A DNA stretch of 64,000 nucleotides from Hyphomicrobiales bacterium (GTDB lineage: Bacteria; Pseudomonadota; Alphaproteobacteria; Rhizobiales; Xanthobacteraceae). Both the position numbers and the translations under genes were made by a program. Below are positions 5,938-25,075 of the stretch, piece after piece. How positions within the stretch are numbered: the first letter of the stretch is position 1; each line of letters starts with the position of its first letter. The notes beneath the pieces are model-generated. The model ran no database searches. It worked only from the letters and a program-made list of their open reading frames with translations, and was not told the DNA's origin. The stretch is from positions 62,001-126,000 of the forward strand of contig JAFKKH010000007.1 of NCBI GenBank assembly GCA_017305665.1, in the 5' to 3' direction.

Positions 5938-6711
5938 TTAACGCTCGGCGAAAGCCTTCTCGACCACGAACTGGCCGGGCTCGCCATGGTTGCCTTCGAT
6001 GAAACCGCGGCGCGTCAGCAACTCGTGGGTATCCTTGAGCAGCGCCGGACTGCCGCAGATCATGACGCGATCATGGGCGGCATCGAGCGACGCCAGGTTG
6101 ATGTCGGCGAACAGCTTGCCCGATTCCATCAGGTCGGTAATGCGGCCGCGGTTGCGGAACGGATCGCGTGTCACGGTCGGGTAGTAGATTAACTGACTGC
6201 GGACGAGCTCGCCGATCAGTTCGTCGTTCGGCAGCTTCTCGGTGATCATCTCGCCGTAGGCGAGCTCGGCGACGCGGCGGCAGCCGTGCAGCAGCACCAC
6301 CTTCTCGAAGCGATCATAGGTCTCGGGATCCTTGATGACGCTGAGGAACGGCGCGAGACCTGTGCCAGTGCCGATCAGGTAAAGATTGCGGCCATCCTCG
6401 AGGTTGTCGATCACGAGCGTGCCGGTGGCCTTGCGGCTGACGATGACCTCATCACCCTCTTTCAGATGCTGAAGGTGCGAGGTCAGCGGCCCATCCGGCA
6501 CCTTGATCGAAAAGAACTCCAGCCGATCCTCGTAATTCGCGCTGGCGACGCTGTATGCGCGCAGCAGCGGCTTCTCGTTGATCTTGAGTCCGATCATCGT
6601 GAACTCGCCGTTACGAAAGCGGAACGTCGGATCGCGGGTGGTGGTGAAGGAAAACAGCGTGTCGGTCCAGTGATGAACGCTGAGAACGCTTTCCTGATTG
6701 AAATTGCTCAT
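5938..6711 (-). CDS. fpr: Ferredoxin--NADP+ reductase (bacterial subclass I)
   Basis: The 257-residue flavoprotein shows the FAD motif RAYS (51-54), the NADP motif GTGTGLAPF (114-122), a CGSP motif near 218 and the C-terminal extension VVEKAFAER typical of proteobacterial Fpr. It passes electrons between NADPH and ferredoxin or flavodoxin. The start is MSNFNQ at 6711, because the upstream extension runs toward the promoter. It is divergent from enamidase across a shared palindromic operator. The context suggests it supplies low-potential electrons to the 6-hydroxynicotinate reductase. No ferredoxin gene is seen in the window. Confidence 0.9.
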   Translation of the reverse strand: MSNFNQESVLSVHHWTDTLFSFTTTRDPTFRFRNGEFTMIGLKINEKPLLRAYSVASANYEDRLEFFSIKVPDGPLTSHLQHLKEGDEVIVSRKATGTLVIDNLEDGRNLYLIGTGTGLAPFLSVIKDPETYDRFEKVVLLHGCRRVAELAYGEMITEKLPNDELIGELVRSQLIYYPTVTRDPFRNRGRITDLMESGKLFADINLASLDAAHDRVMICGSPALLKDTHELLTRRGFIEGNHGEPGQFVVEKAFAER

Positions 6712-6793
6712 GCCATCGATTCCAGGTTCGGCGCATCCGGGCATCGCCGGGGCTAGTTGCGGAATTTGCGGCGGGGCTGCATTGTGCCGCTCA

Positions 6794-6829
6794 ATTCATT
6801 TGTATACGTTCGTTAGTATACAAATGAAT
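6794..6829. promoter_or_regulatory. Double GTATAC operator between fpr and enamidase
   Basis: ATTCATTTGTATAC and its exact reverse complement flank an 8-bp spacer (arms 6794-6807 and 6816-6829). The element also reads as two overlapping sites, TTTGTATACGTT (6799-6810) and TTAGTATACAAA (6813-6824), with 14 bp between centres. It lies midway between the divergent starts at 6711 and 6913. Related palindromes occur at 17541 and 17697 beside the reductase and nicA. This is the pattern of a dimeric MarR or GntR regulator. Confidence 0.7.
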
Positions 6830-6912
6830 AATCCTTCTTGATCCCGACGTCAAGGCGGGGTGAAGTTGGCCGGTCCACGCCAGCCAAGGCATTGAGAAAA
6901 AGGAACAAATCC

Positions 6913-8115
6913 ATGGCTCACGACGCTCCCCAAGGCCCCTCCGGTCCCACCAAGCTCGTCGTCCGCAACATCGGCCTGCTGCTCAGCGGCGCCATGGAAA
7001 AGCCGATCCTCGACGCCGACACCATCGTTGCCGAGAACGGCAAAATCACCGCGATCGGGCGTGCCAAGGACGTCGATCAGGAGGGTGCGACGACGATCGT
7101 CGACGCCAACGGCACGACAGTCACGCCGGGGTTGATCGACAGCCACGTGCATCCGGTGGCGGGCGACTGGACGCCGCGGCAGAACCAGATCGGCTGGATC
7201 GACAGCTTCCTGCATGGCGGCGTCACCACGATGATCTCGGCGGGTGAAGTCCACATGCCGGGTCGGCCAAGAGACGTGGTCGGACTCAAGGCGATGGCAA
7301 TCTTCGCTCAGCGCGCGTTCTGGACGCTGCGCCCGGGTGGCGTGAAAGTGCACGCCGGCGCACCGGTGATCGAGACCGAAATGGTGGAAGACGATTTCAA
7401 GGAACTCGCCGCCGCCGGCGTCAAGCTGCTCGGCGAGGTCGGCCTCGGCGGCGTCAAGGACGGCCCCACCGCACGCAAAATGGTCGGATGGGCACGCAAG
7501 TACGGCATTCAGAGCACGATCCATACCGGCGGTCCCTCGATCCCCGGCTCCGGGCTGATCGATGCCGACGTGGTGCTCGAAGCCGATACCGACGTGGTCG
7601 GCCACATCAATGGCGGTCACACCGCCCTGCCCGATGGCCAGATCCGCTGCATCTGCGAGGGCTGCAAACGTGGCCTCGAACTCGTGCACAACGGCAATGA
7701 GCGCTCCGCGCTCTACACGCTGCGCATTGCCAAGGAGATGAACGATCTCAGCCGCGTCATTCTCGGCACCGACGCGCCCGCGGGCTCCGGCGTGCAACCG
7801 CTCGGCATCCTGCGCATGGTGTCGCTGCTGTCGTCACTCGGCGAGGTTCCCGCCGAGACTGCCTTCTGCTTCGCCACCGGCAACACGGCCCGAATGCGCG
7901 CGCTCGACTGCGGACTGATCGAAGTGGGCCGCTCCGCCGACTTCGTCATCATGGACAAGGCGCAGCATTCGGCAGGCAAGAACATCCTCGACAGCATTCA
8001 ACTCGGCGACCTGCCCGGCATCGGCATGACCATCATCGATGGCATCGTCCGCACCCAGCGCAGCCGCAACACGCCGCCCGCCGGCAAAGTGCCGACGATC
8101 ATCCTGGGGCACTGA
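6913..8115 (+). CDS. ena: Enamidase (1,4,5,6-tetrahydro-6-oxonicotinate hydrolase)
   Basis: The 400-residue cyclic amidohydrolase has the metal motif IDSHVHP (H78, H80), a glutamate in LLGEVGLGG, histidines in TIHTGG and GHINGGHT, and an aspartate in LGTDAPAGS. The whole sequence resembles the Eubacterium barkeri Fe-Zn enamidase, which opens the ring of tetrahydro-6-oxonicotinate to give ammonia and 2-formylglutarate. The start at 6913 has AAGGA 8 bp upstream. It leads a rightward pair with the hydrolase at 8235. The reductase that makes its substrate is encoded at 16003-17472. Confidence 0.85.
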   Translation: MAHDAPQGPSGPTKLVVRNIGLLLSGAMEKPILDADTIVAENGKITAIGRAKDVDQEGATTIVDANGTTVTPGLIDSHVHPVAGDWTPRQNQIGWIDSFLHGGVTTMISAGEVHMPGRPRDVVGLKAMAIFAQRAFWTLRPGGVKVHAGAPVIETEMVEDDFKELAAAGVKLLGEVGLGGVKDGPTARKMVGWARKYGIQSTIHTGGPSIPGSGLIDADVVLEADTDVVGHINGGHTALPDGQIRCICEGCKRGLELVHNGNERSALYTLRIAKEMNDLSRVILGTDAPAGSGVQPLGILRMVSLLSSLGEVPAETAFCFATGNTARMRALDCGLIEVGRSADFVIMDKAQHSAGKNILDSIQLGDLPGIGMTIIDGIVRTQRSRNTPPAGKVPTIILGH

Positions 8116-8132
8116 ACCGACCCTTCCGGCAA

Positions 8133-8162
8133 GCAATCCGGCTATTCCCATGTCCGGATTGC
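8133..8162. repeat. Stem-loop between enamidase and hydrolase genes
   Basis: GCAATCCGG and CCGGATTGC form a perfect 9-bp stem with a 12-nt loop, just downstream of the enamidase stop. No T-run follows, so it is not a standard terminator. It may stabilise the enamidase message or attenuate the hydrolase gene. Confidence 0.4.
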
Positions 8163-8234
8163 GTCGCCTCACCAGTGATGACAATGATGTCGACCGAACC
8201 TGAACTCATCAGGGCCAAAAAATCGGGAGGCATC

Positions 8235-9197
8235 ATGACCGCACCGCTTGATCCAGCGATCGCCGAGATCATTCCAAAACTCCCGCTGCGCGATCCTCCG
8301 ACCATGACGCCGAAAAGCGCGCGGGATTCGCTTCGCGCATTGGCGGATGCACGCGCCGCCATCCCGCCGCCGCCAGTTGCGAGCGTTGCCGACATCAAGG
8401 TCAATGGAGCCTCCGGATCGCTGGACGCGCGCGTCTATCGCAATGGGCAAGGCAAAGCGCCGACCGTCGTGTTCTTCCACGGCGGTGGCTGGGTGGCCGG
8501 CGATCTCGAAACCCATGACCGACAGGCGCGACTGCTCGTCATCGAAACCGGGGCGGTTGTCATCTCCGTCGATTACCGGCGGCCGCCGGAAACGCGCTTT
8601 CCCGGCGCGTTCGAGGATTGCTTCGCCGCCATGCGCGACGTGATCGCGCGGATCGGCGAATTCGGCGGCGATCTCGCCCGTGTCGGGGTCGCCGGCGACA
8701 GCGCCGGCGGCAATCTCGCAGCAACCGTTGCACTCGCCTGCCGCGATGCCGGAATCAAGCTTGCCGGCCAGATGCTGGTCTATCCCGTTACCGATGTCGT
8801 CGGAAATTTTGCCGATGTCAAAGAGAACGCGCGATTTCCGTCACGACAGGACAACGCCGAAGGTTACTTCCTCTCCCGTGCCGTGATGGAATGGTTCACT
8901 GGTCATTATCTCGCAGACATGACTCACGGCACCGACTGGCGCGCCTCGCCGCTGCGCGCCAAAAATCTCGCCGGTGTGGCGCCGGCGGTCGTCTGCACCG
9001 CGTGGTTCGATCCATTGCGCGACGAAGGCAAGGCGTACGCCGATGCGCTCAAGGCCGCCGGCGTGCCCACGACCTATCATGACGGTCTCGGTCTTATTCA
9101 CGGCTATTTCGGACTGGGTGACGCGGCGGCCGCGGCAAAGAGCGAAGCGCAGCGCGTGCGGGCGGATTTCAAGGCACTGCTCGACCGCGGGGCTTGA
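8235..9197 (+). CDS. Alpha/beta hydrolase of the hormone-sensitive-lipase family
   Basis: The 320-residue protein has the HSL oxyanion motif HGGGW (82-86), the nucleophile elbow GDSAGGN (S156), an aspartate at D259 and a catalytic histidine at H289 (LIHGYF). The ATG at 8235 follows GGGAGG. It lies 119 bp after enamidase on the same strand, so it probably belongs to nicotinate catabolism. Candidate roles are ester or amide hydrolysis, or removal of the formyl group from 2-formylglutarate. The last is only an idea, prompted by the alpha/beta-hydrolase deformylase NicD of the Pseudomonas pathway. Confidence 0.85.
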   Translation: MTAPLDPAIAEIIPKLPLRDPPTMTPKSARDSLRALADARAAIPPPPVASVADIKVNGASGSLDARVYRNGQGKAPTVVFFHGGGWVAGDLETHDRQARLLVIETGAVVISVDYRRPPETRFPGAFEDCFAAMRDVIARIGEFGGDLARVGVAGDSAGGNLAATVALACRDAGIKLAGQMLVYPVTDVVGNFADVKENARFPSRQDNAEGYFLSRAVMEWFTGHYLADMTHGTDWRASPLRAKNLAGVAPAVVCTAWFDPLRDEGKAYADALKAAGVPTTYHDGLGLIHGYFGLGDAAAAAKSEAQRVRADFKALLDRGA

Positions 9198-9227: not shown

Positions 9228-9707
9228 CTACCGCAACTTGTTCAGGAGCGCGACCAACGTCTCGCGCTCTCTTGCATCCAGCGGCGCCAGTGTTTCACGC
9301 GTGATCGCAAACGCATTCGGCGCAGCCTTCTCCGCCATCTGCTGGCCGGCGCGCGTCAGGCTGACAAGCAGGCGGCGGCCATCGGTCGGATCGGCACTGG
9401 TCTCGGTCAATCCACGCGCCGTCAAGCGGTCGATCACGCCCTTGATGGTGGCTACATCCATCGCGGTCAGCCGCCCAAGCTGGTTCTGCGAGCACGGGCC
9501 GACTTCCGCGAGCTTCGACAGGGCCGCCCACTGGGTCGGCGTCAGATTGTTGCCGATCGCGTTGGCAAAGATCGCGGAATGGCGCTGCGATACCTGACGC
9601 AGGATGAAGCCAACCTGCTCGTCCAGGATATAGGACAGCCTCGAGCCTCTTTTCGGCGCAGCCGTTCTGTTTGCAGTCGCAGCCTTCACGGACGGCGCCT
9701 TGGCCAT
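9228..9707 (-). CDS. MarR-family transcriptional regulator
   Basis: The 159-residue protein has a winged helix-turn-helix typical of MarR (LTPTQWAALSKLAEVGPCSQ, then TAMDVATIKGVIDRLTARGL, then the wing DPTDGRRLLVSLT). A Lys/Arg-rich N-terminal extension of about 20 residues precedes it. It is the last gene of the leftward nicotinate operon, 30 bp after livF. NicR, the nicotinate-pathway repressor of Pseudomonas putida, is also a MarR protein. This one is the most local candidate for binding the GTATAC palindromes at 6794, 17541 and 17697. The binding itself is inferred. Confidence 0.88.
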   Translation of the reverse strand: MAKAPSVKAATANRTAAPKRGSRLSYILDEQVGFILRQVSQRHSAIFANAIGNNLTPTQWAALSKLAEVGPCSQNQLGRLTAMDVATIKGVIDRLTARGLTETSADPTDGRRLLVSLTRAGQQMAEKAAPNAFAITRETLAPLDARERETLVALLNKLR

Positions 9708-9737: not shown

Positions 9738-10442
9738 CTATACCGCGAGATGCGCATCGCGAATATCGGGACGCGATTCGAGCTCTTTCATGGTGCCGCT
9801 GAAACAAATACGGCCACGCTCGATGATATAAGCGCGGTCGGAGATCAGATTGGCGAAATGCAGATTCTGCTCCGACACGACGATACTGACACCTTCCTTC
9901 TTCATGGTCATGATCGCCTCGACCATCTGCTCGACGATTTTCGGCGACAGACCTTCCGACGGTTCGTCCAGCAGCACCAGCGAAGGATTTCCCATCAGGG
10001 TGCGCGCGATGGTGAGCATCTGCTGCTCGCCGCCGCTCATGCGGCCGCCGGGACGGTTGCGCATTTCGCCGAGATTCGGAAATAACGTGAATAGCTTGTC
10101 GCGCGTCCACTGCGGCGCGTTGGGACGCGGCGGCTGGCGACCAACCTCGAGATTTTCTTCCACCGTCAGGTCGGTGAAGATGCGGCGCTCCTCCGGAACG
10201 TAACCGAGCCCGCTGCGCACGATGGCATGGGTCGGTTCCGCGGACACGTCCCTGCCCTCGAACACGATCCGCCCTTCGCGCTGCTCGACAAGACCGACGA
10301 TGGAGCGGAAAGTAGTCGACTTGCCGGCGCCGTTACGGCCGAGAAGCGCGACCACTTCGCCATTCCCGACCTCGAGCGCCACGTCGAACAGGATATGCGC
10401 GGGCCCATAAAAACTGTTGAGCCCCTGAACCGAGAGCTTCAT
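9738..10442 (-). CDS. livF: Branched-chain-type ABC transporter ATPase (LivF)
   Basis: The 234-residue ATPase has Walker A GRNGAGKST, the signature MSGGEQQM and Walker B LVLLDEPSEGL, in the order and length of LivF. Its start overlaps the livG stop by 4 bp (ATGA). With livG, livHM and livK it makes a complete HAAT-family importer. The operon context suggests that nicotinate or a related pyridine carboxylate is the cargo rather than an amino acid. Confidence 0.92.
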   Translation of the reverse strand: MKLSVQGLNSFYGPAHILFDVALEVGNGEVVALLGRNGAGKSTTFRSIVGLVEQREGRIVFEGRDVSAEPTHAIVRSGLGYVPEERRIFTDLTVEENLEVGRQPPRPNAPQWTRDKLFTLFPNLGEMRNRPGGRMSGGEQQMLTIARTLMGNPSLVLLDEPSEGLSPKIVEQMVEAIMTMKKEGVSIVVSEQNLHFANLISDRAYIIERGRICFSGTMKELESRPDIRDAHLAV

Positions 10443-11230
10443 GCCGGCGCTCCATCGCGATGGCGCGCGTCATAAACCAGACCTTCGCCGAGATAGATCG
10501 CCCGCACCTGCGGATCGCGCCGCACCTCTTCCGGGACGCCCTCCGCGATCAGGCTGCCGCGATTGAGCACCAGGATACGGTCGGCGTGCTCGAACACCAC
10601 ATCCATATCATGCTCCGTGAAGAGGACGCCGATCGATTGCTCGCGCGCGATCCGCGCCGTCAGCCGCATCAGTTCGACGCGCTCGCGCGGCGCCATGCCG
10701 GCTGTCGGCTCGTCCATCAAAAGCAACTTCGGCTGGTTGGCGAGCGCAATCGCCAGTTCCAACCGCTTCAGGTCGCCATAAGCGAGCTCGCCGCAGGGCC
10801 GGTCGGCGTAGCCGTTCATGCCGACGAGATCGAGCAACCGCTCCGCTTCGTCACGAGCCAGCTTTGGCGCCGACGACCACATGTCGAACAGCCGGGAATG
10901 GTGCGAGACCAGCGCAACCTGGACATTCTCGCGCACCGTCATGGTGGGAAAGGTCGCCGTGATCTGGAAGGTGCGACCGACACCGAGCCGCCAGACCGCA
11001 CGCGGTTTCTCGCCGGTGGTATCGCGGCCCAACAGGCGCACCCGCCCGCCGCCCGGCGTGACCTGGCCATTGAGCATGTTGAAACAGGTGCTCTTGCCCG
11101 CGCCGTTCGGTCCGATGAGCGCCAGGATCTCTCCGGCGCTCAACGAGAACGACACGTCACGAACCGCATGTACCCCGCCATAGGATTTGGTGAGGCCCTC
11201 GACAACGAGTAGGACAGGCGCGGCGCTCAT
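10439..11230 (-). CDS. livG: Branched-chain-type ABC transporter ATPase (LivG)
   Basis: The 263-residue ATPase has Walker A GPNGAGKST, the LivG-typical signature ELAYGDLKRLELA and Walker B LLLMDEPTAGM, followed by the H-loop TEHDMDVVF. It overlaps livHM upstream and livF downstream by 4 bp each, so the subunits are translationally coupled. It energises the same importer as livF. Confidence 0.92.
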   Translation of the reverse strand: MSAAPVLLVVEGLTKSYGGVHAVRDVSFSLSAGEILALIGPNGAGKSTCFNMLNGQVTPGGGRVRLLGRDTTGEKPRAVWRLGVGRTFQITATFPTMTVRENVQVALVSHHSRLFDMWSSAPKLARDEAERLLDLVGMNGYADRPCGELAYGDLKRLELAIALANQPKLLLMDEPTAGMAPRERVELMRLTARIAREQSIGVLFTEHDMDVVFEHADRILVLNRGSLIAEGVPEEVRRDPQVRAIYLGEGLVYDARHRDGAPA

Positions 11231-13110
11231 TCGGCACTCTCGACACGTGAAGCAAGCATGGCGGACTTGGTTGATCGACCCCGCCGCGCCTGAAGTGTCT
11301 CGATCATGCCGACGATGCCCTTGGGCATCGCCACCACGATCAACACGATCACCGCGCCAAGCACGAGCTTGGACAGGTCGGTGTGGCTGACCAGCCAGAT
11401 GTTCAGCGCCTTGTAGACGATCGCGCCCACAATCGCTCCGGAAATCGTCTCGACTCCGCCGAGCAGCACCATGACCAGCGCATCGACCGAGAGCGAGATG
11501 CCGACGTTATCGGGAAACACGCTGCCCTTGAGAAACGCGAACAGCGCGCCGCCGATTCCCGCGGCCGTGCCGGCGATCACGAACGCCGTCCACTGGATGC
11601 GCTTGTTGTCGATGCCGATGGCTTCGCTGCGCAGCGCGGAATCGCGGGTCGCGCGCAGCGCGTAACCAAACGGCGAAAACGTCATGGCCCGAAGTGCGGC
11701 CACCACGAGCACTGCGACGCCGAGCGACAGCCAGTAGAACGCAGCCGCGCCCGAAGCCCACGCCGCCGGCCAAACGCCAAGAATGCCATTGTCACCGCCG
11801 GTGACGCTGACCCACTGGAACGCAATCGACCAGACGATCTGCGCGAAAGCCAGCGTCAGCATGGCGAAATAAACGCCGGACAGTTGCACGGCGAAGAAGC
11901 CGAACACCGCTGCGCCGAGCAGACCGAGCAGCGGCCCGATCAGCAAACAGACGATCATCGGCAGGCCTGCCATCTTGGCCAGGAACGCCACGCCATAGGC
12001 ACCGAGACCGAAATAGGCGGCGTGCCCGAACGACGCCAAGCCACCCACCGACATCAGGAAATGCAGGCTGGCGGCGAAGATGACGAAAATCGCGATCTCC
12101 GATGCAACAGTCAGTACGTACGTGCCACCGAACAACGGCAAGGCCGCTGCGACGATCAGGACACCGATCATCGCGACACGCTCGTTTGCGCTGAGCGGAC
12201 GCCATGGCTGTACCGTTAATCCCGGCGTCTTGCGCGCGGGTGCCTCCGGCTTTCCGAACAGGCCCCACGGTCGCACGATCAGCACCACGGCCATAACGAG
12301 AAAAACAAGGATGATCGAAATCTTCGGAAAGATCAGAATGCCGAACGCATTCAGTTCGGACACCAGCACCGCCGCGACAAAGGCGCCGATGATACTGCCG
12401 AGGCCGCCGATCACCACCACGACAAAGACGTCGACGATGACGCTAAGATCCATGGCGTGATTGGCGGCATCGCGTGGAATCCGCAACGCGCCGCCGAACG
12501 CAGCAAGAAAGACACCGAGCGCGAACACGCTGGTGAACAGCCACTTCTGATTGACCCCAAGCGCCGCCACCATGTCGCGATCCTGCGTGGCGGCGCGGAC
12601 CAGCACGCCCCAGCGGGTGCGCCGGAACAGCAGCCAGAGGATGCCGAGAACGATCGGACTCAGCACGATCAGAAACAGGTCGTAGGACGGCACCTGCTGG
12701 CCGAAGAAATCCACCGCGCCGCGCAAGCCCGGCGCACGGCGGCCGAGCAGATCGTCCGGCCCCCAGATCAGGATGACGAGATCCTCGATCATCAGCGTCA
12801 GCCCGAACGTCGCGAGCAACTGAAACAGCTCGGGCGAGCGATAAATCCGGCGCAGCAGGATCATTTCGATGAGGACGCCGAACACCGCGACCGCGAGCGA
12901 TGCAAGCAGGATTCCGCCCCAGAAGCCGAGGGCGCCGGACAACCGCTCCGTCAGCGTATAGGCGACAAAGGCGCCGAGCATATAGAACGCGCCGTGGGCG
13001 AAGTTGACGATCCGTGTCACACCGAAAATGATCGACAGGCCCGACGCGACCAGGAACAGCGAAGCCGCACTGGCGAGACCGGTCAGGAACTGAACGACGT
13101 AAAAGGCCAT
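11227..13110 (-). CDS. livHM: Fused branched-chain-type ABC permease (LivH-LivM)
   Basis: The 627-residue membrane protein contains a LivH domain (about residues 1-295) followed by a LivM domain (about 320-610) in one chain. The linker is short and hydrophilic and includes PEAPARKTPG. The LivM half has FASLHFLMSVGGLASFGHAAYFGLGAYG, a family signature. Separate LivH and LivM proteins are the norm in enterics; the fusion fixes their 1:1 ratio. I chose the ATG at 13110 over a TTG at 13116. A long hairpin separates it from livK. Confidence 0.9.
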   Translation of the reverse strand: MAFYVVQFLTGLASAASLFLVASGLSIIFGVTRIVNFAHGAFYMLGAFVAYTLTERLSGALGFWGGILLASLAVAVFGVLIEMILLRRIYRSPELFQLLATFGLTLMIEDLVILIWGPDDLLGRRAPGLRGAVDFFGQQVPSYDLFLIVLSPIVLGILWLLFRRTRWGVLVRAATQDRDMVAALGVNQKWLFTSVFALGVFLAAFGGALRIPRDAANHAMDLSVIVDVFVVVVIGGLGSIIGAFVAAVLVSELNAFGILIFPKISIILVFLVMAVVLIVRPWGLFGKPEAPARKTPGLTVQPWRPLSANERVAMIGVLIVAAALPLFGGTYVLTVASEIAIFVIFAASLHFLMSVGGLASFGHAAYFGLGAYGVAFLAKMAGLPMIVCLLIGPLLGLLGAAVFGFFAVQLSGVYFAMLTLAFAQIVWSIAFQWVSVTGGDNGILGVWPAAWASGAAAFYWLSLGVAVLVVAALRAMTFSPFGYALRATRDSALRSEAIGIDNKRIQWTAFVIAGTAAGIGGALFAFLKGSVFPDNVGISLSVDALVMVLLGGVETISGAIVGAIVYKALNIWLVSHTDLSKLVLGAVIVLIVVAMPKGIVGMIETLQARRGRSTKSAMLASRVESAE

Positions 13111-13130
13111 CTGCAATCCGCTTAAGAAAG

Positions 13131-13162
13131 TCTGCCGCGGACGCCCATGCGTCCGCGGCAGA
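13131..13162 (-). terminator. Intercistronic hairpin between livK and livHM
   Basis: TCTGCCGCGGACGC and its exact reverse complement form a 14-bp stem with a CCAT loop. Reading leftward, it follows the livK stop and is trailed by CTTTCTTAAG, which is only moderately T-rich. It looks like a leaky terminator or an mRNA 3' stabiliser that would make more binding protein than permease. Confidence 0.6.
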
Positions 13163-13167
13163 TCACG

Positions 13168-14490: not shown

Positions 14491-15075
14491 TCAGCGCAGT
14501 CCGTCTTCTCCCTTGATTTCGTTGACGGTCAGACCACCGACTCGCGCCAACGGCCGGCCACTGTCGGTGACCGCCACGGCAACCATGATCTCATTGGCGC
14601 GGGGCGCGTCATTGATCTGCACCTCCATACCGTCAAAATGACTACGGACGAAAGCCGCGTCCTTGTGACCGAGCGGAATGTCCAGAGTGGTTCCCATGGC
14701 ACCACGTTTCTTCGACGACGGAATCAGCGCAGCTCCCTTGCTCAGAACCTTGCGCACCGGCGTCCCCATTTTCGGATGCAAGATCGCTGCCGCATGCTCG
14801 AGTTCGCCGTTCTCCCCAACTGCCGCCGCCTTGCCGTAGCTTTGCGCCTTGCTGCCGTCGATCCCAAGCGCTGCAACCGCCTTTTTGGTCAACAGATCGC
14901 CCAATTCTTCGCCAATGGCGATCAGCGGCGCGAGATCCTCGACATATTTTCCCGCGAACGGATTTTCGATTACCGCAATCGCCGCCGCGCGACGGGTCGG
15001 CGGCGAAACGTCGCGGCCAGCCTCAATCCGGGTTTCTTCGACCACAGTTACCACCTTGCGGATCACGGCACCCAT
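14491..15075 (-). CDS. DUF1185 / 'amino acid synthesis' family protein, function unknown
   Basis: The 194-residue protein belongs to the Pfam AA_synth family, recognisable from IRKVVTVVEETRIEAGRDV at the start and the ASVIENPFAG-like segment AAIAVIENPFAGKYVEDLAPL. The ATG at 15075 has AAGGAG 8 bp upstream; a GTG at 15084 would sit too close to that site. No catalytic role is established for the family. It lies between UPF0280 and the transporter in the nicotinate operon, which argues for a step or accessory function in ring reduction or in handling the C6 product. Confidence 0.8.
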   Translation of the reverse strand: MGAVIRKVVTVVEETRIEAGRDVSPPTRRAAAIAVIENPFAGKYVEDLAPLIAIGEELGDLLTKKAVAALGIDGSKAQSYGKAAAVGENGELEHAAAILHPKMGTPVRKVLSKGAALIPSSKKRGAMGTTLDIPLGHKDAAFVRSHFDGMEVQINDAPRANEIMVAVAVTDSGRPLARVGGLTVNEIKGEDGLR

Positions 15076-15094
15076 CGCGAACACTCCTTGCCCA

Positions 15095-16006
15095 TCATGC
15101 GTTCATCATCTCATGCGATCGTTCCGGCAGCACGCGACGCTGTGCCACGGCGGACACGACATCCCTGAGTGCTACCGTAACCGTCTCGCCCTGCAAATGC
15201 AGCGAAACACCATCGATCAGCCCCTCGGCGAGCAGCGCACGACCTTTGCAGGCGCCCGACTCGAGCGCGATCATGACCTCGCTCTGCGACAATGCTCCGA
15301 CATCTTGCGTCACAAGGCGAACGCCGAGGTCGCTGTCGGGCTGAAGTTCGTTCGCGGGCACGCGCGCAATTCGGGGATGCCCGGGCAGATCGACGGCATT
15401 GGCAATGACCGTGGCCGCGGCATCAGCCTGCGCCGCGGTCGACGCGAGAACCGTCACCGCATCGGCAATGCCCAAAGAGAAGCTGCGGCCGTGCGATCCG
15501 CTGGTGGCAATGCCGCGAGAGGAATCGCCAGTTTCAATGCGCGTCGTGCCGATCAGCGTCGGCCTATCGGGACGGTCCACCAGACCCACCCTGAAATATT
15601 CGCCAGACGAAAGATGCAGCGCGATGTCGCCGCCGTTGTTGACATAGGCGCGCGACAGGTTCGCTGCCTGCGTCATCGCACCCAGGATTTCCTCGGCGAC
15701 AGCACCAGCCACCGCAGCCATCGGCGTGATGAAAGTCTCGGCGCTGAACGGCGCCACTGCCGCATACATGCGCCGCGCCACAACGCCCTTCAACGCGCAT
15801 CGATCCGGATAAGCCTGCCGGCGCAACTCCGGCAGTTCGGCGCACAATTCGTCGAGCAAACCGGTGAACCGCCGCACCGCCGCTTCATAAGCCGCCTGCA
15901 CGTCCGCGTCAGCACCCTGCGCCTCCACGATCAGATCGATCGGACCGTCCTGCAGGTGCAACCGCCTGCCGTCCGCGAGCCATCCGATCTGCGGGCACTG
16001 CCTCAT
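15095..16006 (-). CDS. UPF0280 family protein, ApbE-like; possible flavin transferase
   Basis: The 303-residue protein is a UPF0280 member. Motifs shared with ApbE flavin transferases can be seen: YVNNGGDIAL (ApbE-type GGD loop, about residue 130), GIATSGSH (ATSG) and ADAAAT near the end of the helix ASTAAQADAAAT. Its start overlaps the reductase stop by 4 bp (ATGA), so the two are translated together. The E. barkeri 6-hydroxynicotinate reductase is reported to carry covalently bound flavin. I infer that this protein attaches it. The family has no proven activity that I know of. Confidence 0.82.
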   Translation of the reverse strand: MRQCPQIGWLADGRRLHLQDGPIDLIVEAQGADADVQAAYEAAVRRFTGLLDELCAELPELRRQAYPDRCALKGVVARRMYAAVAPFSAETFITPMAAVAGAVAEEILGAMTQAANLSRAYVNNGGDIALHLSSGEYFRVGLVDRPDRPTLIGTTRIETGDSSRGIATSGSHGRSFSLGIADAVTVLASTAAQADAAATVIANAVDLPGHPRIARVPANELQPDSDLGVRLVTQDVGALSQSEVMIALESGACKGRALLAEGLIDGVSLHLQGETVTVALRDVVSAVAQRRVLPERSHEMMNA

Positions 16007-17472
16007 GCGCGCGACCTCGGCTCGGTCAGTTGCGGCGGAGACTGCCGAACCTCGGTGTTGTTGTCTTTCAGCGAAGACAGCGGCTGCACGTAGTCCATGT
16101 GGCCGCCCAGCGCGGCATAATCCGATAGCTTCAGCGTGAACTCGATCGGCGCGACCAGCGCCGGCGTCGGAACGTAACCGAACGCGCCTTCAGGAACGCG
16201 CGTCACATCGACCATGAAGGTGATGCCGCCGCCGGGCCACACATAGACCGGCGCACCGCCGCAGGTCACCGACGTCAGCGCGTCCTTGACCGAGCGCGTC
16301 AAACGCACCGGGTTGTCCGTGACGCCGGCGCGTAGCGATCCGCCAGCGCCGCCCATAAACAGCACCGTGCACAACGCCGGTTCGCAGTTTTCCTGTATTC
16401 GTTCTACAGACGATTGAAGCGCAGGCGGCATCGGCTTCTCGATCGGCTTCAGGGATTCATCGAGTTCGAAATAGGCCGCATGTTCGCCTGTCGTCGAAAC
16501 CATCAGCATCCGCAAACCTGGCTGCGCCTCCTTCGGGTTGAACGGTCCAAGGATCGAGAGCGGATCGGCGATATTGGTGCCGCCCCAACCCGTTCCGGGA
16601 TCGGCCACCTGAAAATAGCGTCCAGGTGTCGAACGGCGTCCCTTCATCTTGATGCCGGTATCGGGAATATCGAGCAGTTTGCCGGCCTGGTGCTCGGACA
16701 ACACGCCGGTGATGTGGTCGTCGACCACAACGACTTCGTCGACCTTACCCTGCCATTGTTTCGCAAACATCCCGATCGTCGCGGAACCGCAGCCGACTCG
16801 CATGCGCTCCTCGGCCATGCCGTTGACAACAGGTGGATACCCGGCCTGGACGATCACCGTCGCGCCGCCATCGATGGTCATTTCCACCGGCTTGCCGTTG
16901 GACAGGTCCATCAGCGCGTCGCAGGTGACCCGGCCTTCCTTCTTCGAACCGCCGGTCAGATGGTGGACGCCGCCAAGCGACAGCATCTGCGATCCATATT
17001 CGCCGGTGGTGACATGACCGATTGCTTCGCCCTGTACCCGCACCGCCGCGGTTTCGGGGCCAAGATAACGGTCGGTGTCGATCTTCACCTTGACGCCGCA
17101 GTAGCTGAAGATGCCCTCGGTCACGACCGTGACCATATCGACGCCATCGACTTGCGATGACACGATGAACGGAGCGGGCTTGTAATCGGGATAGGTGGTA
17201 CCTGCGCCGATGGCTGTGACGAAGACGCTTGGCTCGTGGACGATCTTGCCGTCCCAATCGCCGCTGGCCTGAAACGGCACCAACCGTCCGCCGTGGGAGA
17301 CCGTTCGCTCCAGCACCACGTGGGGATCGACGCGAACCAATTCGCCGTTATGATTGGCATAACGATCGCACGCGCCCGCAGCGCCCGGCTTGATGTAGCA
17401 CATGACCGGACAGGCATCGCAGCGGATCTTGTCCGTCTGACCCGCAGCAGCAGAGGTTGTGTCATCCATCAT
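16003..17472 (-). CDS. hnr: 6-hydroxynicotinate reductase
   Basis: The 489-residue iron-sulfur protein starts with a four-cysteine cluster motif, C18-x2-C21-x3-C25-x9-C35 (RCDACPVMCYIKPG). Long conserved segments follow, including GIFSYCGVKVKID, HHLTGGSKKEGRVTCDAL and VWPGGGITFMVDV. It resembles the E. barkeri enzyme that reduces 6-hydroxynicotinate to tetrahydro-6-oxonicotinate with reduced ferredoxin. DGGAT (201-205) resembles the GAT core of ApbE flavinylation sites, though the usual Ser/Thr before GAT is Gly. I start at 17472; 17469 is equally possible. The frame is open to 17616, but that stretch contains an operator. Confidence 0.82.
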   Translation of the reverse strand: MMDDTTSAAAGQTDKIRCDACPVMCYIKPGAAGACDRYANHNGELVRVDPHVVLERTVSHGGRLVPFQASGDWDGKIVHEPSVFVTAIGAGTTYPDYKPAPFIVSSQVDGVDMVTVVTEGIFSYCGVKVKIDTDRYLGPETAAVRVQGEAIGHVTTGEYGSQMLSLGGVHHLTGGSKKEGRVTCDALMDLSNGKPVEMTIDGGATVIVQAGYPPVVNGMAEERMRVGCGSATIGMFAKQWQGKVDEVVVVDDHITGVLSEHQAGKLLDIPDTGIKMKGRRSTPGRYFQVADPGTGWGGTNIADPLSILGPFNPKEAQPGLRMLMVSTTGEHAAYFELDESLKPIEKPMPPALQSSVERIQENCEPALCTVLFMGGAGGSLRAGVTDNPVRLTRSVKDALTSVTCGGAPVYVWPGGGITFMVDVTRVPEGAFGYVPTPALVAPIEFTLKLSDYAALGGHMDYVQPLSSLKDNNTEVRQSPPQLTEPRSRA

Positions 17473-17540
17473 GAACGCATCCACGAGCCGGGACGAAGTG
17501 ACGGACCGGAATAAATTTGCAATCCGCAGCCGGCACTTCA

Positions 17541-17552
17541 TTCGTATACGAA
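17541..17552. promoter_or_regulatory. GTATAC operator near hnr
   Basis: TTCGTATACGAA is a perfect 12-bp palindrome 69 bp upstream of the hnr start. It shares the GTATAC core and the TT/AA ends with the sites at 6799, 6813 and 17697. Confidence 0.6.
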
Positions 17553-17696
17553 CGATGTTGCGCGCAGACGCGAAGCCTGTCAAGCGGACGGCCGTAGCGA
17601 ACCGGACCTGCCGCATAAAGGTTCAATCGCCCGCCCTCGTGTTCATAAATCGTACGACCACCGGTGTCGGGTGATCGATTGTCGCTGACGCTTGCA

Positions 17697-17767: not shown

Positions 17768-18259
17768 ATGAGCCCCTCCAAACCTTCTACGCGTCTCACC
17801 GTGAATGGAAAGGTCCGTGATGTTGACGCTTCGCCCGACACAGCGCTGCTCTATGTGCTCCGCAACGATCTCGAACTGAACGGGCCGAAGTATGGCTGCG
17901 GCCTCGGCGAATGCGGCGCGTGCACCGTCATCATCGACGGTGTTGCGGCGCGGTCATGCGTGATCCCGATCGGCGGCTGCGAGAACCGCGATGTGCTGAC
18001 ACTGGAAGGTCTGGGCTCCCGCGAACACCCTGATCCCGTGCAGAGCGCCTTCATCGAAGAACAGGCCGCGCAGTGCGGCTACTGCCTCAACGGCATGATC
18101 ATGTCCATCAAGGCACTGCTGTTGAGAAATCCGCAACCTTCGGAAGTGGAGATCGCGGAGGCGCTGAAATACAACCTCTGTCGTTGCGGCGCCCATGTGG
18201 AAATCATGCGCGCCGCGATGCGTGCAGCCGGGCGCACCCTCGAGAGCCTTGCGCAATGA
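17768..18259 (+). CDS. nicA: Nicotinate dehydrogenase small subunit, two [2Fe-2S] clusters
   Basis: The 163-residue protein is a xanthine-dehydrogenase-family iron-sulfur subunit. The plant-type cluster uses C44, C49, C52 and C64 (GCGLGECGAC). The second uses C103, C106, C138 and C140 (CGYC and CRC). It carries electrons from the molybdenum site of NicB to the haems. Together they hydroxylate nicotinate at C6. The nicB start overlaps its stop by 4 bp. NicA of Pseudomonas putida has the same size and layout. The ribosome site is weak. Confidence 0.92.
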   Translation: MSPSKPSTRLTVNGKVRDVDASPDTALLYVLRNDLELNGPKYGCGLGECGACTVIIDGVAARSCVIPIGGCENRDVLTLEGLGSREHPDPVQSAFIEEQAAQCGYCLNGMIMSIKALLLRNPQPSEVEIAEALKYNLCRCGAHVEIMRAAMRAAGRTLESLAQ

Positions 18260-21200
18260 CGCCATCGTCCCTCGGCTCCGGCAACAAATTTTCCGGATCG
18301 CTCTCGGTGGTTCATCCCGCGGGCACCGTCACCAGCACCGGAATCTTCGAGACCTTCATCAAGATCGCGGCGGACGGCGTTATTACTGCGTTCAACGGTC
18401 ATGTCGATCTCGGCACCGGCATCCGCACCGCGCTCGCGCAGATCGTAGCCGACGAACTCGACGTCTCGTTCGCGCGCGTGGTCGTCGTGCTCGGCGACAC
18501 CTCCAGCACGCCAGACCAGGGACCGACCATCGCCAGCGAGACTATCCAGGTCACGGCCGTGCCATTGCGGAAGGCGGCGGCGCAGGCGCGGCAGTATCTG
18601 GTGCAACTAGCCGCCAAACGGCTCGAGTTGCCCGAGAGCAAATTGACCGTCGACGACGGACTGATTCGCACCCATGACAACCGCAGCCTGAGCTATGGTG
18701 AGTTGATCGGAAACGACGTCATCCGCCTCGAACTCGCGGACGATGTCGTGGTGAAAACCGCGGATTCCTATCGGATCGTCGGGCAGTCCGTGCCGCGGGT
18801 CGATCTTCCCGCCAAGGCGACCGGCGAACTCGTCTATGTGCATGACGTCCGCGTGCCCGGCATGCTGCACGGTCGCGTGGTCCGCCCGCCGTATGCCGGC
18901 GTCGACGCCGGTGATTTCGTCGGCACCAGCCTGATCGCGATCGACGAGTCCTCCGTCAAGGATATTCCAGGTCTCGTCGCCGTGGTGCGGATCGGCGACT
19001 TCGTCGGCGTGGTCGCCGAGCGCGAGGAAAACGCCATCAAGGCGGCGGCACAGATCAAGGTGACGTGGAAGCCGACGCCCACGCTGCCCGATCTCGACGA
19101 CATCCAGAACGCGTTGCGTACCAATCCGTCGACGCCACGCACGCTGCTCGACAAGGGCGATGTCGATAGCGGGATTGCCGCGGCAGACAAGCCGATGAAG
19201 CGGACCTACGTCTGGCCTTATCAGATGCACGCCTCGATCGGACCATCGTGTGCGGTCGCCGACTGGCAGGCGGGGCAGGTGCGCGTCTGGTCCGGCACCC
19301 AGAATCCACACGCTCTTCGCGCAGATCTCGCGCGGCTGCTGTCCCGTCCGGAAACCGAGATCGATCTGATCCGGATGGAAGCCGCCGGTTGCTACGGGCG
19401 CAACTGCGCCGACGATGTCACCGCCGATGCGGTGCTGCTATCACGCGCGGTCGGAAAACCCGTGCGCGTACAACTCACCCGCGAACAGGAACATGCCTGG
19501 GAGCCGAAGGGCGCCGCGCAACTGATTGACGTCGATGGCGGCCTGCGCGCCGACGGCAGTGTCGCGGCTTATGATTTTGCCACGCGCTATCCGTCCAATG
19601 CCGCGCCGACGCTGGCGTTGCTGCTCACGGGCATGGTGTCCCCGACGCCGGCGGTTCTGCAGATGGGCGACCGCACCGCAATTCCGCCCTACGACTACGA
19701 TGCGATGCGTGTCGTGGCGCACGACATGCCGCCGATCGTACGCGCGTCGTGGCTACGCGGCGTGTCGGCGCTGCCGAACACCTTTGCACACGAGTCCTAT
19801 ATCGACGAACTCGCTACCGAAGCGGGCGTCGACCCCATCGAATACCGGCTGCGCTACCTGAAAGACCCGCGCGCGATCGACCTCGTCAAGGCCGTCGCCG
19901 AACGCGCAGAGTGGACGCCGCGTCCGGTGTGGACGCCGCCTGAACCGGACGGCGACGTGGTCCACGGACGCGGTTTCGCTTATGCGCTCTATGTGCATGG
20001 TCCGTTTCCGGGCAAACCGGCGGCATGGTCGGCATGGGTGACCGATGTCGCCGTCGACAAATCGACCGGCGAAGTCAGCGTGACACGCGTCGTCGCAGGC
20101 CAGGACTCCGGCCTGATGATCAATCCGGACGGCGTCCGCCATCAGATCCATGGCAACGTCATCCAGTCCACCAGCCGCGCGCTGATGGAAGAAGTCGCGT
20201 TCGAGCCATCGTCGGTCGCGAGCCGCGAATGGGGCGCCTATCCCATCGTCAAATTTCCCGACGTGCCCAAGATCGACGTGCTGATGCTGCCGCGCGCCGA
20301 TCAGCCACCAATGGGCGTCGGCGAATCCGCCTCGGTGCCGAGCGCGGCCGCGATCGCCAACGCTATCTTCGATGCGATCGGCGTGCGCTTTCGCGAGCCG
20401 CCGTTCACGCCGGAGAAAATCAGGGCCGGTCTCGGACGCGTGGCGCCAGCGCCGACGCATATTTTGCCAGTACCGCCGCTTCCGCCAACGCGAACGCAGA
20501 AGAGCCCTTTCGCAAAGCCGCTCGGCATCGTCTCCGGAATCGCGGCGCTATGCGCCGCCGCCATCGGCCTTGCCGCTGCTGTTCTGCCGGGACGTGCGAT
20601 CGCGCCGATCGCGCGCCCGGATGCGTCGACCTACTCCGCCGCGACCATCGCACGCGGCGCACAACTCGCGGCGCTCGGCGATTGCGCCGTGTGCCACACG
20701 GCTCTGAACGGAATCACGAACGCCGGCGGGCGGCCGCTGGAGACACCGTTCGGCACGATCTACGCGACCAATATCACGCCAGACCTCGAAACCGGCATTG
20801 GCGCATGGTCGTATCCAGCCTTCGAACGTGCCATGCGTGAGGGCCTTCATCGCGACGGGCGGCAGCTCTATCCAGCCTTCCCCTATAACCACTTTGCGAA
20901 GACCACAGACGCGGACTTGCAGGCGCTCTATGCCTACCTGATGGCGCAGGCGCCGATACGTGCAGTCAATCGCGAGACGGCGCTGCCCTTCCCCTTCAAT
21001 GTGCGGCCACTGATGGCGGGGTGGAATGCGCTATTCCATAACAACAGCGAATTCACGCCCGACACGACGAAGTCCGAGCTGTGGAATCGCGGCGCCTATC
21101 TGGTGGAAGGCCTCGGCCATTGCGGCGCGTGCCACACGCCGCGCAATGCGCTTGGCGCGGAAAAGGATGCGAAGGCCTATCTCGCCGGCGGATTCGCCGA

Positions 21201-21810
21201 AGGGTGGGAAGCCCCGCCGCTGACATCGCTGTCGCACGCGCCGATTCCCTGGAGCGAGAGCGAGTTGTTCGCGTACCTGCGCACCGGCCACTCCCGCTTC
21301 CATGGCGTGGCGGCAGGACCGATGGGCCCGGTCGTGAAAGAACTGGCCGCACTGCCGGACAATGACATCAAAGCGATGGCGCACTACCTCGCCTCGTTCA
21401 ACATAGCCGTCGGTCACGATCAACAGCAGGCCCTCGCCGTGCAACTGGAGACGGCGACCCTGTCGCTTGACTACTCCGCGCCTCAGACCGGTGCCCGCAT
21501 CTATGAGGGCGCTTGCGCCGTCTGCCACGCCGTGGGCGGTCCGCAACTGTTCGGCAGCCGGCCGTCATTGGCGCTCAACAGCAACCTGCACAGCGCGACG
21601 CCAGACAACCTGATCCAGGTGATCCTGCACGGCATCGACACTCCGGTCTCCAGCGACCTTGGCTATATGCCAGCGTTCAAGGGCAGCCTGAATGCCGAGC
21701 AGGTCGCCGATCTCGTGATTTACCTCCGCCGGCAGTTCGCGCCCGGCAAGCCGGCCTGGAACGAAGTGGAAACGGCGGTCCGGAAAGTCATGCTGGCAAC
21801 GCCGGACTGA
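18256..21810 (+). CDS. nicB: Nicotinate dehydrogenase large subunit, molybdopterin plus tri-haem cytochrome c
   Basis: The 1184-residue protein joins a molybdenum hydroxylase domain (about 20-740, active-site glutamate E690 in MGVGES) to a cytochrome c region with three CxxCH sites at 810, 956 and 1087. A hydrophobic helix (about 756-780) lies between the two parts and could be a membrane anchor. This is the NicB architecture of Pseudomonas, in which electrons from nicotinate go through haem c to the respiratory chain, not to NAD. The haems need periplasmic maturation, so the topology of the molybdenum half is an open point. Confidence 0.92.
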   Translation: MTPSSLGSGNKFSGSLSVVHPAGTVTSTGIFETFIKIAADGVITAFNGHVDLGTGIRTALAQIVADELDVSFARVVVVLGDTSSTPDQGPTIASETIQVTAVPLRKAAAQARQYLVQLAAKRLELPESKLTVDDGLIRTHDNRSLSYGELIGNDVIRLELADDVVVKTADSYRIVGQSVPRVDLPAKATGELVYVHDVRVPGMLHGRVVRPPYAGVDAGDFVGTSLIAIDESSVKDIPGLVAVVRIGDFVGVVAEREENAIKAAAQIKVTWKPTPTLPDLDDIQNALRTNPSTPRTLLDKGDVDSGIAAADKPMKRTYVWPYQMHASIGPSCAVADWQAGQVRVWSGTQNPHALRADLARLLSRPETEIDLIRMEAAGCYGRNCADDVTADAVLLSRAVGKPVRVQLTREQEHAWEPKGAAQLIDVDGGLRADGSVAAYDFATRYPSNAAPTLALLLTGMVSPTPAVLQMGDRTAIPPYDYDAMRVVAHDMPPIVRASWLRGVSALPNTFAHESYIDELATEAGVDPIEYRLRYLKDPRAIDLVKAVAERAEWTPRPVWTPPEPDGDVVHGRGFAYALYVHGPFPGKPAAWSAWVTDVAVDKSTGEVSVTRVVAGQDSGLMINPDGVRHQIHGNVIQSTSRALMEEVAFEPSSVASREWGAYPIVKFPDVPKIDVLMLPRADQPPMGVGESASVPSAAAIANAIFDAIGVRFREPPFTPEKIRAGLGRVAPAPTHILPVPPLPPTRTQKSPFAKPLGIVSGIAALCAAAIGLAAAVLPGRAIAPIARPDASTYSAATIARGAQLAALGDCAVCHTALNGITNAGGRPLETPFGTIYATNITPDLETGIGAWSYPAFERAMREGLHRDGRQLYPAFPYNHFAKTTDADLQALYAYLMAQAPIRAVNRETALPFPFNVRPLMAGWNALFHNNSEFTPDTTKSELWNRGAYLVEGLGHCGACHTPRNALGAEKDAKAYLAGGFAEGWEAPPLTSLSHAPIPWSESELFAYLRTGHSRFHGVAAGPMGPVVKELAALPDNDIKAMAHYLASFNIAVGHDQQQALAVQLETATLSLDYSAPQTGARIYEGACAVCHAVGGPQLFGSRPSLALNSNLHSATPDNLIQVILHGIDTPVSSDLGYMPAFKGSLNAEQVADLVIYLRRQFAPGKPAWNEVETAVRKVMLATPD

Positions 21811-21870
21811 CCCTCCGGCACTGGCGTTCCCACACTTTGCAAACGGCCGGCCGCACGATACTTTAGTGGC

Positions 21871-23175
21871 ATGACCGTTACCGATATCGCGACGCGAACC
21901 TACAATCACGGCTGGCGCCTCGACCCCATCGTGCGCAGCCTGCTGGATACCGATTTTTACAAGCTGCTGATGATGCAGATGATCCGGGAATTCTATCCGG
22001 ACGAGCATGTGACCTTTTCGGTCATCAATCGCAGCCGTCGTGTCCGCCTCGCCGAAGTCATCGACGAAGGCGAGTTGCGCGCGCAACTCGACCATGCACG
22101 CAGTATCGGCTTCAGCAAGAAGGAGCTGATCTGGCTCGCCGGTAACACGTTCTACGGCAAGACCCAGATGTTTTCGCCGGACTTCATCAACTGGCTCACG
22201 ACCTTCCGGCTGCCTGAATACGAGTTGCGCAAGGTCGACGGCCAATACGAACTGCATTTTCATGGTCCATGGACCCACACCACCATGTGGGAAATTCCGG
22301 CGCTCGCCATCCTGAACGAGTTGCGCTCGCGGCAGGCGATGAAAGGCCAGGGCCGCTTCGCGCTTGATGTTCTCTATGCACGCGCCAAGGCCAAGCTGTG
22401 GACCAAGGTCGAGCGGCTGCAAAAGCTGGATGGTCTGCGGCTGTCGGACTTCGGTACTCGGCGGCGGCACGGTTTTCTCTGGCAACGCTGGTGCGTCGAG
22501 GCGGTGAAGGAAGGACTCGGGTCGGCATTCACCGGCACATCCAACGTCCTGCTCGCCATGGACAGCGATCTTGAAGCGATCGGCACCAACGCGCATGAGC
22601 TTCCGATGGTGGCCGCAGCGCTAGCCAACGACGACACAGAATTGCGCTGGGCGCCCTATCGCATTCTCGACCAGTGGCGGCACACTTATGGCGGCAACCT
22701 GCTGATCGCCCTGCCCGATGCGTTCGGCACCAAGGCTTTCCTGCGCGACGCGCCGGAATGGGTGGCCGACTGGACCGGCTTCCGCCCCGACAGCCTGCCG
22801 CCGATCGCAGCCGGCGAAGAAATCATCAAGTGGTGGAAGATGAAGGGCCGCGATCCCCGGGAAAAGCTGCTGGTGTTTTCCGACGGCATGGACGCCGACT
22901 CGATCGAGGAGACGCATCGGCATTTTGCCGGCCGCGTGCGGGTCAGCTTCGGCTGGGGCACCAACCTGACCAACGACTTCGTGGGATGTTCTCCTGACGG
23001 CGGGGCCGACCTCGATCCGATCTCGATCGTCTGCAAGGTGACGGCGGTCAACGGCCGGCCAGCCGTCAAACTCTCGGACAATCCGGAAAAGGCGACAGGC
23101 GAACCGTCGGAGATCGAACGCTACCTACGGGTGTTCGGCGATGCCGGCCGTGTCCGTGCCGCGGTGCACGTCTGA
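21871..23175 (+). CDS. pncB: Nicotinate phosphoribosyltransferase
   Basis: The 434-residue enzyme makes nicotinate mononucleotide from nicotinate and PRPP with [18 protein letters not shown] at the start and [20 protein letters not shown] in the middle are family signatures. [10 protein letters not shown] holds the histidine equivalent to the phosphorylated one of Salmonella PncB. It lies 60 bp after nicB on the same strand, so NAD salvage and catabolism of the same molecule are probably expressed together. Confidence 0.93.
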
Positions 23176-25064: not shown

Positions 25065-25075
25065 ACTGACTCCGC

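Follow-up and report, generated by a model that had tools for sequence, protein, structure and literature searches.

Nicotinate degradation through 1,4,5,6-tetrahydro-6-oxonicotinate (THON) is known from fermenting as well as aerobic bacteria. In its available text, PMC9304392 groups Eubacterium barkeri with Azorhizobium as users of a single THON route, and PMC3511419 (2012) refers both to the aerobic route of Azorhizobium (Kitts 1989, 1992) and to the E. barkeri gene cluster (Alhapel 2006). According to the accessible parts of PMC3511419, strain SG-6C breaks down nicotinate supplied as the only carbon source, 6-hydroxynicotinate appearing transiently, and the onward route via glutarate is known from Azorhizobium. 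Here we analyze a block of genes at positions 5938 to 23175 of a 64,000-nucleotide stretch, hereafter the window, from contig JAFKKH010000007.1 of a Hyphomicrobiales bacterium (assembly GCA_017305665.1). The block contains genes for a putative nicotinate dehydrogenase (NicAB), 6-hydroxynicotinate reductase (Hnr) and enamidase (Ena), together with members of the protein families UPF0280 and DUF1185.

A predicted nicotinate pathway of a known type

With a probability of about 0.9, we assign the block to the aerobic nicotinate pathway of the Azorhizobium/Bradyrhizobiaceae type, with UPF0280 and DUF1185 as predicted helpers. Homology, gene order and co-occurrence form the basis of this assignment, and each reaction in the host, as well as both helper roles, is deduced from them. 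At the gene level, a nicotinate hydroxylase, Hnr (by its relatives only) and an enamidase, the enzymes needed for the reductive route through THON, were all found. The initial annotation had described the block as a combination of NicA and a tri-haem NicB with Hnr and enamidase, and had named Fpr, Ena, a transporter, a MarR regulator, Hnr, NicA, NicB and PncB. All of these genes were recovered in place (Table 1), and the combination is borne out by the domains, the three CxxCH motifs of NicB, the match of Ena to PDB entry 2vun and the relatives of Hnr. Missing from that gene list were UPF0280, DUF1185 and an alpha/beta hydrolase. The route that had been proposed, from nicotinate via 6-hydroxynicotinate and tetrahydro-6-oxonicotinate to 2-formylglutarate, agrees with the homologies and with the pathway as published (PMC3511419 and PMC9304392, in their available parts).

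In this pathway, the ABC importer would take up nicotinate, and NicAB would convert nicotinate and water into 6-hydroxynicotinate, delivering the electrons to the respiratory chain by way of its three haems. Hnr would reduce 6-hydroxynicotinate to THON with electrons that flow from NADPH to Fpr and then probably to ferredoxin. Hydrolysis of THON by Ena would release ammonia and 2-formylglutarate, and the latter is expected to yield glutarate by decarboxylation and oxidation. The MarR regulator probably senses a pathway intermediate, and PncB would divert part of the nicotinate to NAD. UPF0280 would be required by Hnr as a dedicated partner, most likely in cofactor assembly, and DUF1185 of the window's clade probably acts with Ena at ring opening or just after it.

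The hydroxylase has the architecture of the Pseudomonas putida-type NicAB, that is, a small subunit with two [2Fe-2S] clusters and a large subunit with molybdenum cofactor and C-terminal c-type haem sites, with no FAD subunit in the block; the likeness is one of domains and of identity to annotated Neorhizobium proteins (62% for NicA, 56% for NicB). The three CxxCH motifs of NicB lie at residues 810, 956 and 1087, and the nicB ATG at 18256 overlaps nicA (ATGA). Ena aligns with the E. barkeri enamidase structure over residues 38–420 of 425 (383 residues), and the HVH, GEVG, HTGG, HING and DAP stretches are aligned. The ATG at 6913 is more likely to be its true start than the listed TTG. Fpr has the likely role of regenerating a reduced electron carrier for Hnr.

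To judge conservation, we used 81 Bradyrhizobiaceae loci, namely 80 kept of 255 Hnr relatives plus the window's own; judged by Hnr, the closest named relatives of the window belong to this family. The succession hnr, UPF0280, binding protein, permease, ATPases, MarR is repeated across these loci, indicating that the gene set is not a product of chance. UPF0280 is present in 80 of the 81, nicA and DUF1185 in 79 each, nicB in 77 and MarR in 75. Lower counts were obtained for ena (45), fpr (35) and pncB (48), which are probably undercounted because the loci extend at most 10 kb past hnr.

The initial annotation had called the pathway a hybrid. In outline, this stands with the gene assignments; as a new hybrid it does not, since a BLAST search with the E. 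barkeri cluster had already found the same cluster in Azorhizobium caulinodans, Bradyrhizobium japonicum, Rhodopseudomonas palustris and strain SG-6C (PMC3511419, available part), that is, in Azorhizobium and three Bradyrhizobiaceae strains. The pathway is therefore already known, and the block is an ordinary instance for its bacterial family. The published cluster shares with the window the first three steps, the ABC importer, two conserved unknown proteins and the family of organisms. Compared by figure legend and text of that source, the window adds the alpha/beta hydrolase after ena, and no other difference was found.

The parallel that had been drawn to Pseudomonas and E. barkeri is apt for both halves, but it left out the Azorhizobium/Bradyrhizobiaceae route, and the continuation would run through glutarate and not through the E. 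barkeri fermentation. Homologues of Hnr and Ena are common to the block and the E. barkeri cluster. In contrast to E. barkeri, where the hydroxylase is said to be a selenium/FAD enzyme, the window encodes the haem-linked NicAB, and family scans recognized no gene of the methyleneglutarate branch in the block. The P. putida nic cluster reportedly has the same kind of respiratory hydroxylase, but the window's route after 6-hydroxynicotinate would be reductive and not the oxidative nicC/nicX route. None of nicC, nicX, nicD, nicE and nicF gave a family match among the block genes, in libraries whose models for all five are unverified; the claim that nicC/nicX-type genes are absent holds to this extent and for the block.

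Identity of Hnr

The source genome carries a single Hnr. Its closest relatives are from Afipia and Bradyrhizobium, with the best identity (94%) in a metagenome-assembled genome and 81–87% in Afipia. Among 26 relatives on plasmids, 17 are annotated as 6-hydroxynicotinate reductase; the other nine have no feature, no annotation or the label 'hypothetical protein'. One Bradyrhizobiaceae Hnr was reported to be 42% identical to the E. barkeri enzyme (PMC3511419, available part). For alignment, 90 of 119 Hnr and 109 of 118 UPF0280 matches were retained; those that started late, were short or were identical to others were dropped. Eight Cys residues are invariant in the 90 Hnr homologues, which suggests enough ligands for two Fe-S clusters. 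Met49 at 17472 is the likely start. A search of viral contigs for further Hnr returned 28 pattern matches and no true relative.

Three results speak against the identification of Hnr. No Pfam or NCBIfam model matched at E 0.001, so that a curated model is lacking. The best PDB match was at chance level (E 0.6), with no solved relative. The AlphaFold model, built with 35 near relatives in the alignment, reached a predicted local distance difference test (pLDDT) score of 38, and because of this poor model no fold search was made.

UPF0280 as a predicted partner of Hnr

The start codon of the UPF0280 gene overlaps the hnr stop (ATGA). We searched three genome samples for Hnr and UPF0280, of which the class sample (289 genomes) was also searched for DUF1185 and enamidase. 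Hnr was found there in 44 genomes, each of which also contains UPF0280 at E 1.7e-21 or better. UPF0280 matched in 47 genomes in total, and the three matches outside the Hnr genomes are weak (7e-4 to 1e-5). In the phylum sample (249 genomes, with G000, G028, G037 and G066 common to the class sample), Hnr and UPF0280 occur in the same 18 genomes. One of these, G475, defined the order of the third sample (170 genomes), in which Hnr was found in 15 genomes, UPF0280 above the cut-off in 15 and both in 14; UPF0280 matches in G612 and G669 were below the cut-off. Two exceptions in the order sample count against a strict tie: G591, whose genome is 97% complete, has UPF0280 without Hnr, and G632, 78% complete, has a cut Hnr without UPF0280.

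The pair is also close in position. Across 131 loci, UPF0280 lies on the same strand as hnr in 129 and within 300 bp of it in 128. The loci without UPF0280, L167 and L188, are cut contigs, and UPF0280 pieces are present on other contigs of those genomes. In G624 the two genes are about 14 kb apart, and in G541 and G662 they are on separate contigs. Since both are present even where they are apart, a functional tie is indicated rather than mere adjacency.

The predicted UPF0280 model reached a pLDDT of 88. Foldseek matched it best to DVU1097 (PDB 2o34, COG2122; E 4e-10). FmnB and ApbE, which are flavin transferases, came next (E 7e-6 to 1e-3), their entries having a probability of 1.00, indicating an ApbE-like fold. 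We tentatively favour a role in which UPF0280 would attach a cofactor to Hnr through a mechanism of its own, because the E. barkeri Hnr reportedly carries a covalent flavin. Also in favour of such a role, no PF02424 ApbE was detected in the source genome, whereas the search was positive in 7 of 14 control genomes.

Several observations weigh against a flavin transferase of the ApbE kind. The template-modeling (TM) scores to ApbE-type structures are modest (0.31–0.51), and UPF0280 scores 21.9 bits against PF02424 (ApbE), under the cut-off of 25.6. No conserved His is found in the segment that corresponds, by eye, to the ApbE motif HIxDP, which we take to hold the base His. The ApbE target motif D-x-x-[S/T]-G-A-[S/T] is present in none of the 90 Hnr sequences. 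Furthermore, a similarly distant ApbE relative elsewhere in the source genome may have escaped the PF02424 search, which left UPF0280 itself unlisted. A further difference from ApbE and FmnB is that UPF0280 is encoded in a catabolic operon. The ApbE active site consists of Ser, His and Asp, with His as the base (PMC12052999, available text), and UPF0280 keeps the TSG Ser and the AD-x3-T Asp/Thr site. His17, His131 and His210 are kept elsewhere in 90–98% of the 109 sequences, and another catalytic base is therefore possible.

Two other roles are close rivals of cofactor attachment. UPF0280 could be a stable subunit of the reductase, structural or flavin-carrying, and not a maturation factor, which we hold to be rather unlikely. 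The gene overlap and the near-perfect co-occurrence are equally expected of a subunit, and ApbE-fold proteins may bind FAD, judging by the title of entry 3pnd. The E. barkeri Hnr, however, is said to have been purified as one kind of polypeptide, and the distance between the genes in G624, G541 and G662 is less usual for a subunit, yet possible.

No more probable is a function in sulfur or Fe-S assembly on Hnr, after the example of COG2122. In Desulfovibrio, homocysteine synthesis depends on a COG2122 relative, for which a role involving a persulfide was proposed (PMC5764234, available part), and this also tells against flavin transfer; the invariant Cys residues of Hnr, suggestive of two Fe-S clusters, would fit. 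However, cells own a general Fe-S machinery, and in this clade's UPF0280 one Cys, Cys55, is invariant across 45 near relatives, its conservation dropping to 78% in the wider set. Cofactor attachment stays the preferred, if tentative, role. UPF0280 was not mentioned in the literature searched, a weak negative given that subscription papers were mostly outside the search, and the string 'hydroxynicotin' is absent from the ApbE review PMC12052999.

Exchangeable hydroxylase and predicted ring-opening modules

We also examined 51 loci from families other than the window's, of which 4 are on plasmids, 43 come from the class sample and 4 are additional. The Hnr-UPF0280 pair is present in 49 of them, the two misses being cut contigs, and fpr is close to hnr in four (L150, L151, L152 and L197). 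The hydroxylase is mostly an FAD-type molybdenum enzyme, with an ndhFAD match in 40 loci and nicB in two. Examples of such an enzyme in place of NicAB beside hnr are L151 (10392-13975) and most of L154–L200. In one locus, L156 (G028 contig 1, 2969799-2971195), Hnr is in two overlapping pieces in different frames, a frameshift or a split gene in a single-contig genome.

The ring-opening genes differ as well. Enamidase was found in 13 of the 51 loci, HyuA in 19 and HyuB in 16, and enamidase and Hyu were never found together. HyuA genes, mostly with HyuB, lie near hnr without enamidase in L150 (17632-21425), L153 (17002-20837) and 17 of L154–L200. No HyuA was found in the window or in any of the 81 loci of Bradyrhizobiaceae. 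In a genome-wide search of the class sample (limit E 1e-60), a strong enamidase, defined by 66% identity or more, was detected in 19 of the 289 genomes, 18 of which have Hnr. HyuA is present at the fetched Hnr locus of 16 Hnr genomes, and none of these has a strong enamidase (G104 has one of 41% identity). Conversely, none of the 18 Hnr genomes with a strong enamidase has HyuA at the fetched locus, three of these loci being under 15 kb. Ten Hnr genomes have neither, six of them in loci under 15 kb. The mutual exclusion gave a Fisher p of 1.5e-5, uncorrected for kinship.

We then mapped these labels on an Hnr tree built with a quick method (60 rows: 27 enamidase, 18 Hyu, 15 none; L156 and L188 were excluded as short). 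The labels require 8 changes, at least 5 of which are forced by well-supported branches. No ena was present in the fetched loci L001, L007 and L026, and unlabelling them left the change counts unaltered.

Among the relatives of HyuA are N-methylhydantoinase and 5-oxoprolinase, which open lactams in an ATP-dependent manner (PMC8453981, available part). As THON is a six-membered lactam, we infer that HyuAB may stand in for enamidase; the HyuAB clusters may instead have a different substrate. None of the titles listed pairs HyuAB with nicotinate, and no paper was found that joins nicotinate catabolism with hydantoinase, hnr, UPF0280 or DUF375 (three whole-word matches); both are weak negatives, as subscription papers were mostly outside the search.

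DUF1185

DUF1185 was detected in 57 of the 289 class-sample genomes. Hnr is present in 39 of these and was not found in the other 18. This argues against an exclusive role beside Hnr: with 18 matches outside Hnr genomes and 5 of the 44 Hnr genomes without a match, the link of DUF1185 to Hnr is looser than that of UPF0280. A quick tree, with several open forks and long rows, divides the DUF1185 proteins into two clades. The window's clade (24 rows) has 20 members from enamidase loci or genomes, two from HyuAB loci and two (L007 and L026) without ena in the fetched locus. The other clade (31 rows) is mixed, with 15 enamidase, 9 Hyu and 7 unlabelled members. By hand count, DUF1185 lies within 8 kb of a strong enamidase in 16 of the 19 genomes, and in G060, G202 and G210 contig 1 its neighbours include weaker relatives of enamidase. 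The DUF1185 of the window's clade is therefore likely to be an enamidase partner.

Trigonelline degradation may pass through a formyl-dicarboxylate, as the nicotinate route may, and a role of DUF1185 in decarboxylating such a compound can be guessed from this analogy. The relative TgnF belongs to trigonelline degradation, and for HcdD, a relative in a hydroxycoumarin pathway, no effect could be shown (PMC7913881, available part); the latter does not speak for the decarboxylation role. The structure paper on 2qtp/3byq inferred a function in amino-acid metabolism partly from an adjoining importer of the branched-chain type (PMC2954203, available part). In the cluster described here, the importer of this type beside DUF1185 is presumably a nicotinate importer.

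Taken further, Hnr might be immature without UPF0280, which would install a covalent flavin by a new route without the ApbE base, while the metal-dependent enamidase (with DUF1185) or the ATP-dependent HyuAB would be swapped around this core, HyuAB being a second THON opener. We regard this combined model as speculative and doubtful.

Genes of the block and its flanks

The block genes are listed in Table 1. The importer (9738-14385, minus strand) is overall of the urea/branched-chain type, and in the fused permease gene the UrtB and UrtC models each match one half. The alpha/beta hydrolase, with homologues in just 3 of the 81 Bradyrhizobiaceae loci (about 41–45% identity), appears to be an accessory insertion. 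That the block serves mainly another pyridine, such as 6-chloronicotinate or a substituted nicotinate, with nicotinate incidental, is very improbable: the relative SG-6C degrades 6-chloronicotinate via the same 6-hydroxynicotinate step and the extra esterase-like hydrolase after ena could attack an ester, but NicAB and PncB are nicotinate enzymes, family scans revealed no chlorohydrolase-like gene among the block genes, and SG-6C itself lives on nicotinate as sole carbon source (PMC3511419, available part).

Table 1. Predicted genes of the block, with positions in the window and supporting matches (loci: Bradyrhizobiaceae set)
Product	Position	Strand	Evidence
Fpr, ferredoxin-NADP reductase	5938..6744	-	PF00175 (NAD) and PF00970 (FAD) over cut-off; NF008178 162.6 bits, under its cut-off of 390
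Enamidase (Ena)	6838..8115	+	PDB 2vun (E. barkeri enamidase), E 7.3e-109
Alpha/beta hydrolase, hormone-sensitive-lipase type, 3' of ena	8175..9197	+	PF07859, 228.9 bits
MarR-family regulator	9228..9707	-	PF12802 and PF01047
ABC importer ATPase, LivF/UrtE type	9738..10442	-	Family models; 75/81 loci
ABC importer ATPase, LivG/UrtD type	10439..11230	-	Family models; 76/81 loci
Fused ABC permeases, UrtB/LivH-like then UrtC/LivM-like	11227..13116	-	PF02653 twice; 77/81 loci
Periplasmic substrate-binding protein of importer	13168..14385	-	PF13458, 237.5 bits; 78/81 loci
DUF1185 / PF06684 protein	14491..15084	-	PF06684, 249.6 bits; closest solved protein PDB 2qtp, E 4e-87
UPF0280 protein	15095..16006	-	NF003322, 412.6 bits (cut-off 290)
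6-Hydroxynicotinate reductase (Hnr)	16003..17616	-	Named through relatives
NicA, 2x[2Fe-2S] subunit of nicotinate dehydrogenase	17768..18259	+	PF01799 and PF00111
NicB, Mo-cofactor subunit, three haem c sites	18256..21810	+	PF20256, PF02738, PF00034
PncB, nicotinate phosphoribosyltransferase, NAD salvage	21871..23175	+	NF003704 508 bits and TIGR01514 298 bits, both over cut-off

Upstream of the block (312-5824, minus strand) lies an aromatic cluster with genes for a 4-oxalomesaconate tautomerase (4706-5824), a PIG-L protein (3948-4691), a catechol 2,3-dioxygenase (2943-3908) and a Zn alcohol dehydrogenase (312-1367). Only the dioxygenase has close kin in the Bradyrhizobiaceae loci (16/81, about 93% identity). 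The PrpF gene at 4706-5824 was considered as an E. barkeri-type methylitaconate isomerase and ruled out, as it scores 539 bits as 4-oxalomesaconate tautomerase (cut-off 440) and lies near the dioxygenase.

To the right (23198-28976) follow genes for a thiamine-pyrophosphate (TPP) enzyme, SerA, an NhaD-like antiporter and old yellow enzymes. The TPP enzyme and SerA (0/81 loci) are outside the relatives' clusters. The TPP enzyme (23198-24907) was ruled out as a 2-formylglutarate decarboxylase; it is benzoylformate-decarboxylase-like below the cut-off, with a homologue in 1 of 81 loci at 32% identity. Further genes (30886-60316) encode a P450-like protein (30886-32097), a TRAP transporter (33655-35577), a mandelate-racemase-type enolase (40222-41940), a glycogen-debranching-like protein (43430-45634), ABC transporter components and an AMP-binding enzyme (58739-60316).

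Implications

The comparison places two gene families whose function is unknown or disputed in a context that can be tested: UPF0280 as a predicted maturation factor of Hnr, and the window's clade of DUF1185 as a likely partner of enamidase. If HyuAB does take the place of enamidase, it would offer a second way to open the same ring.

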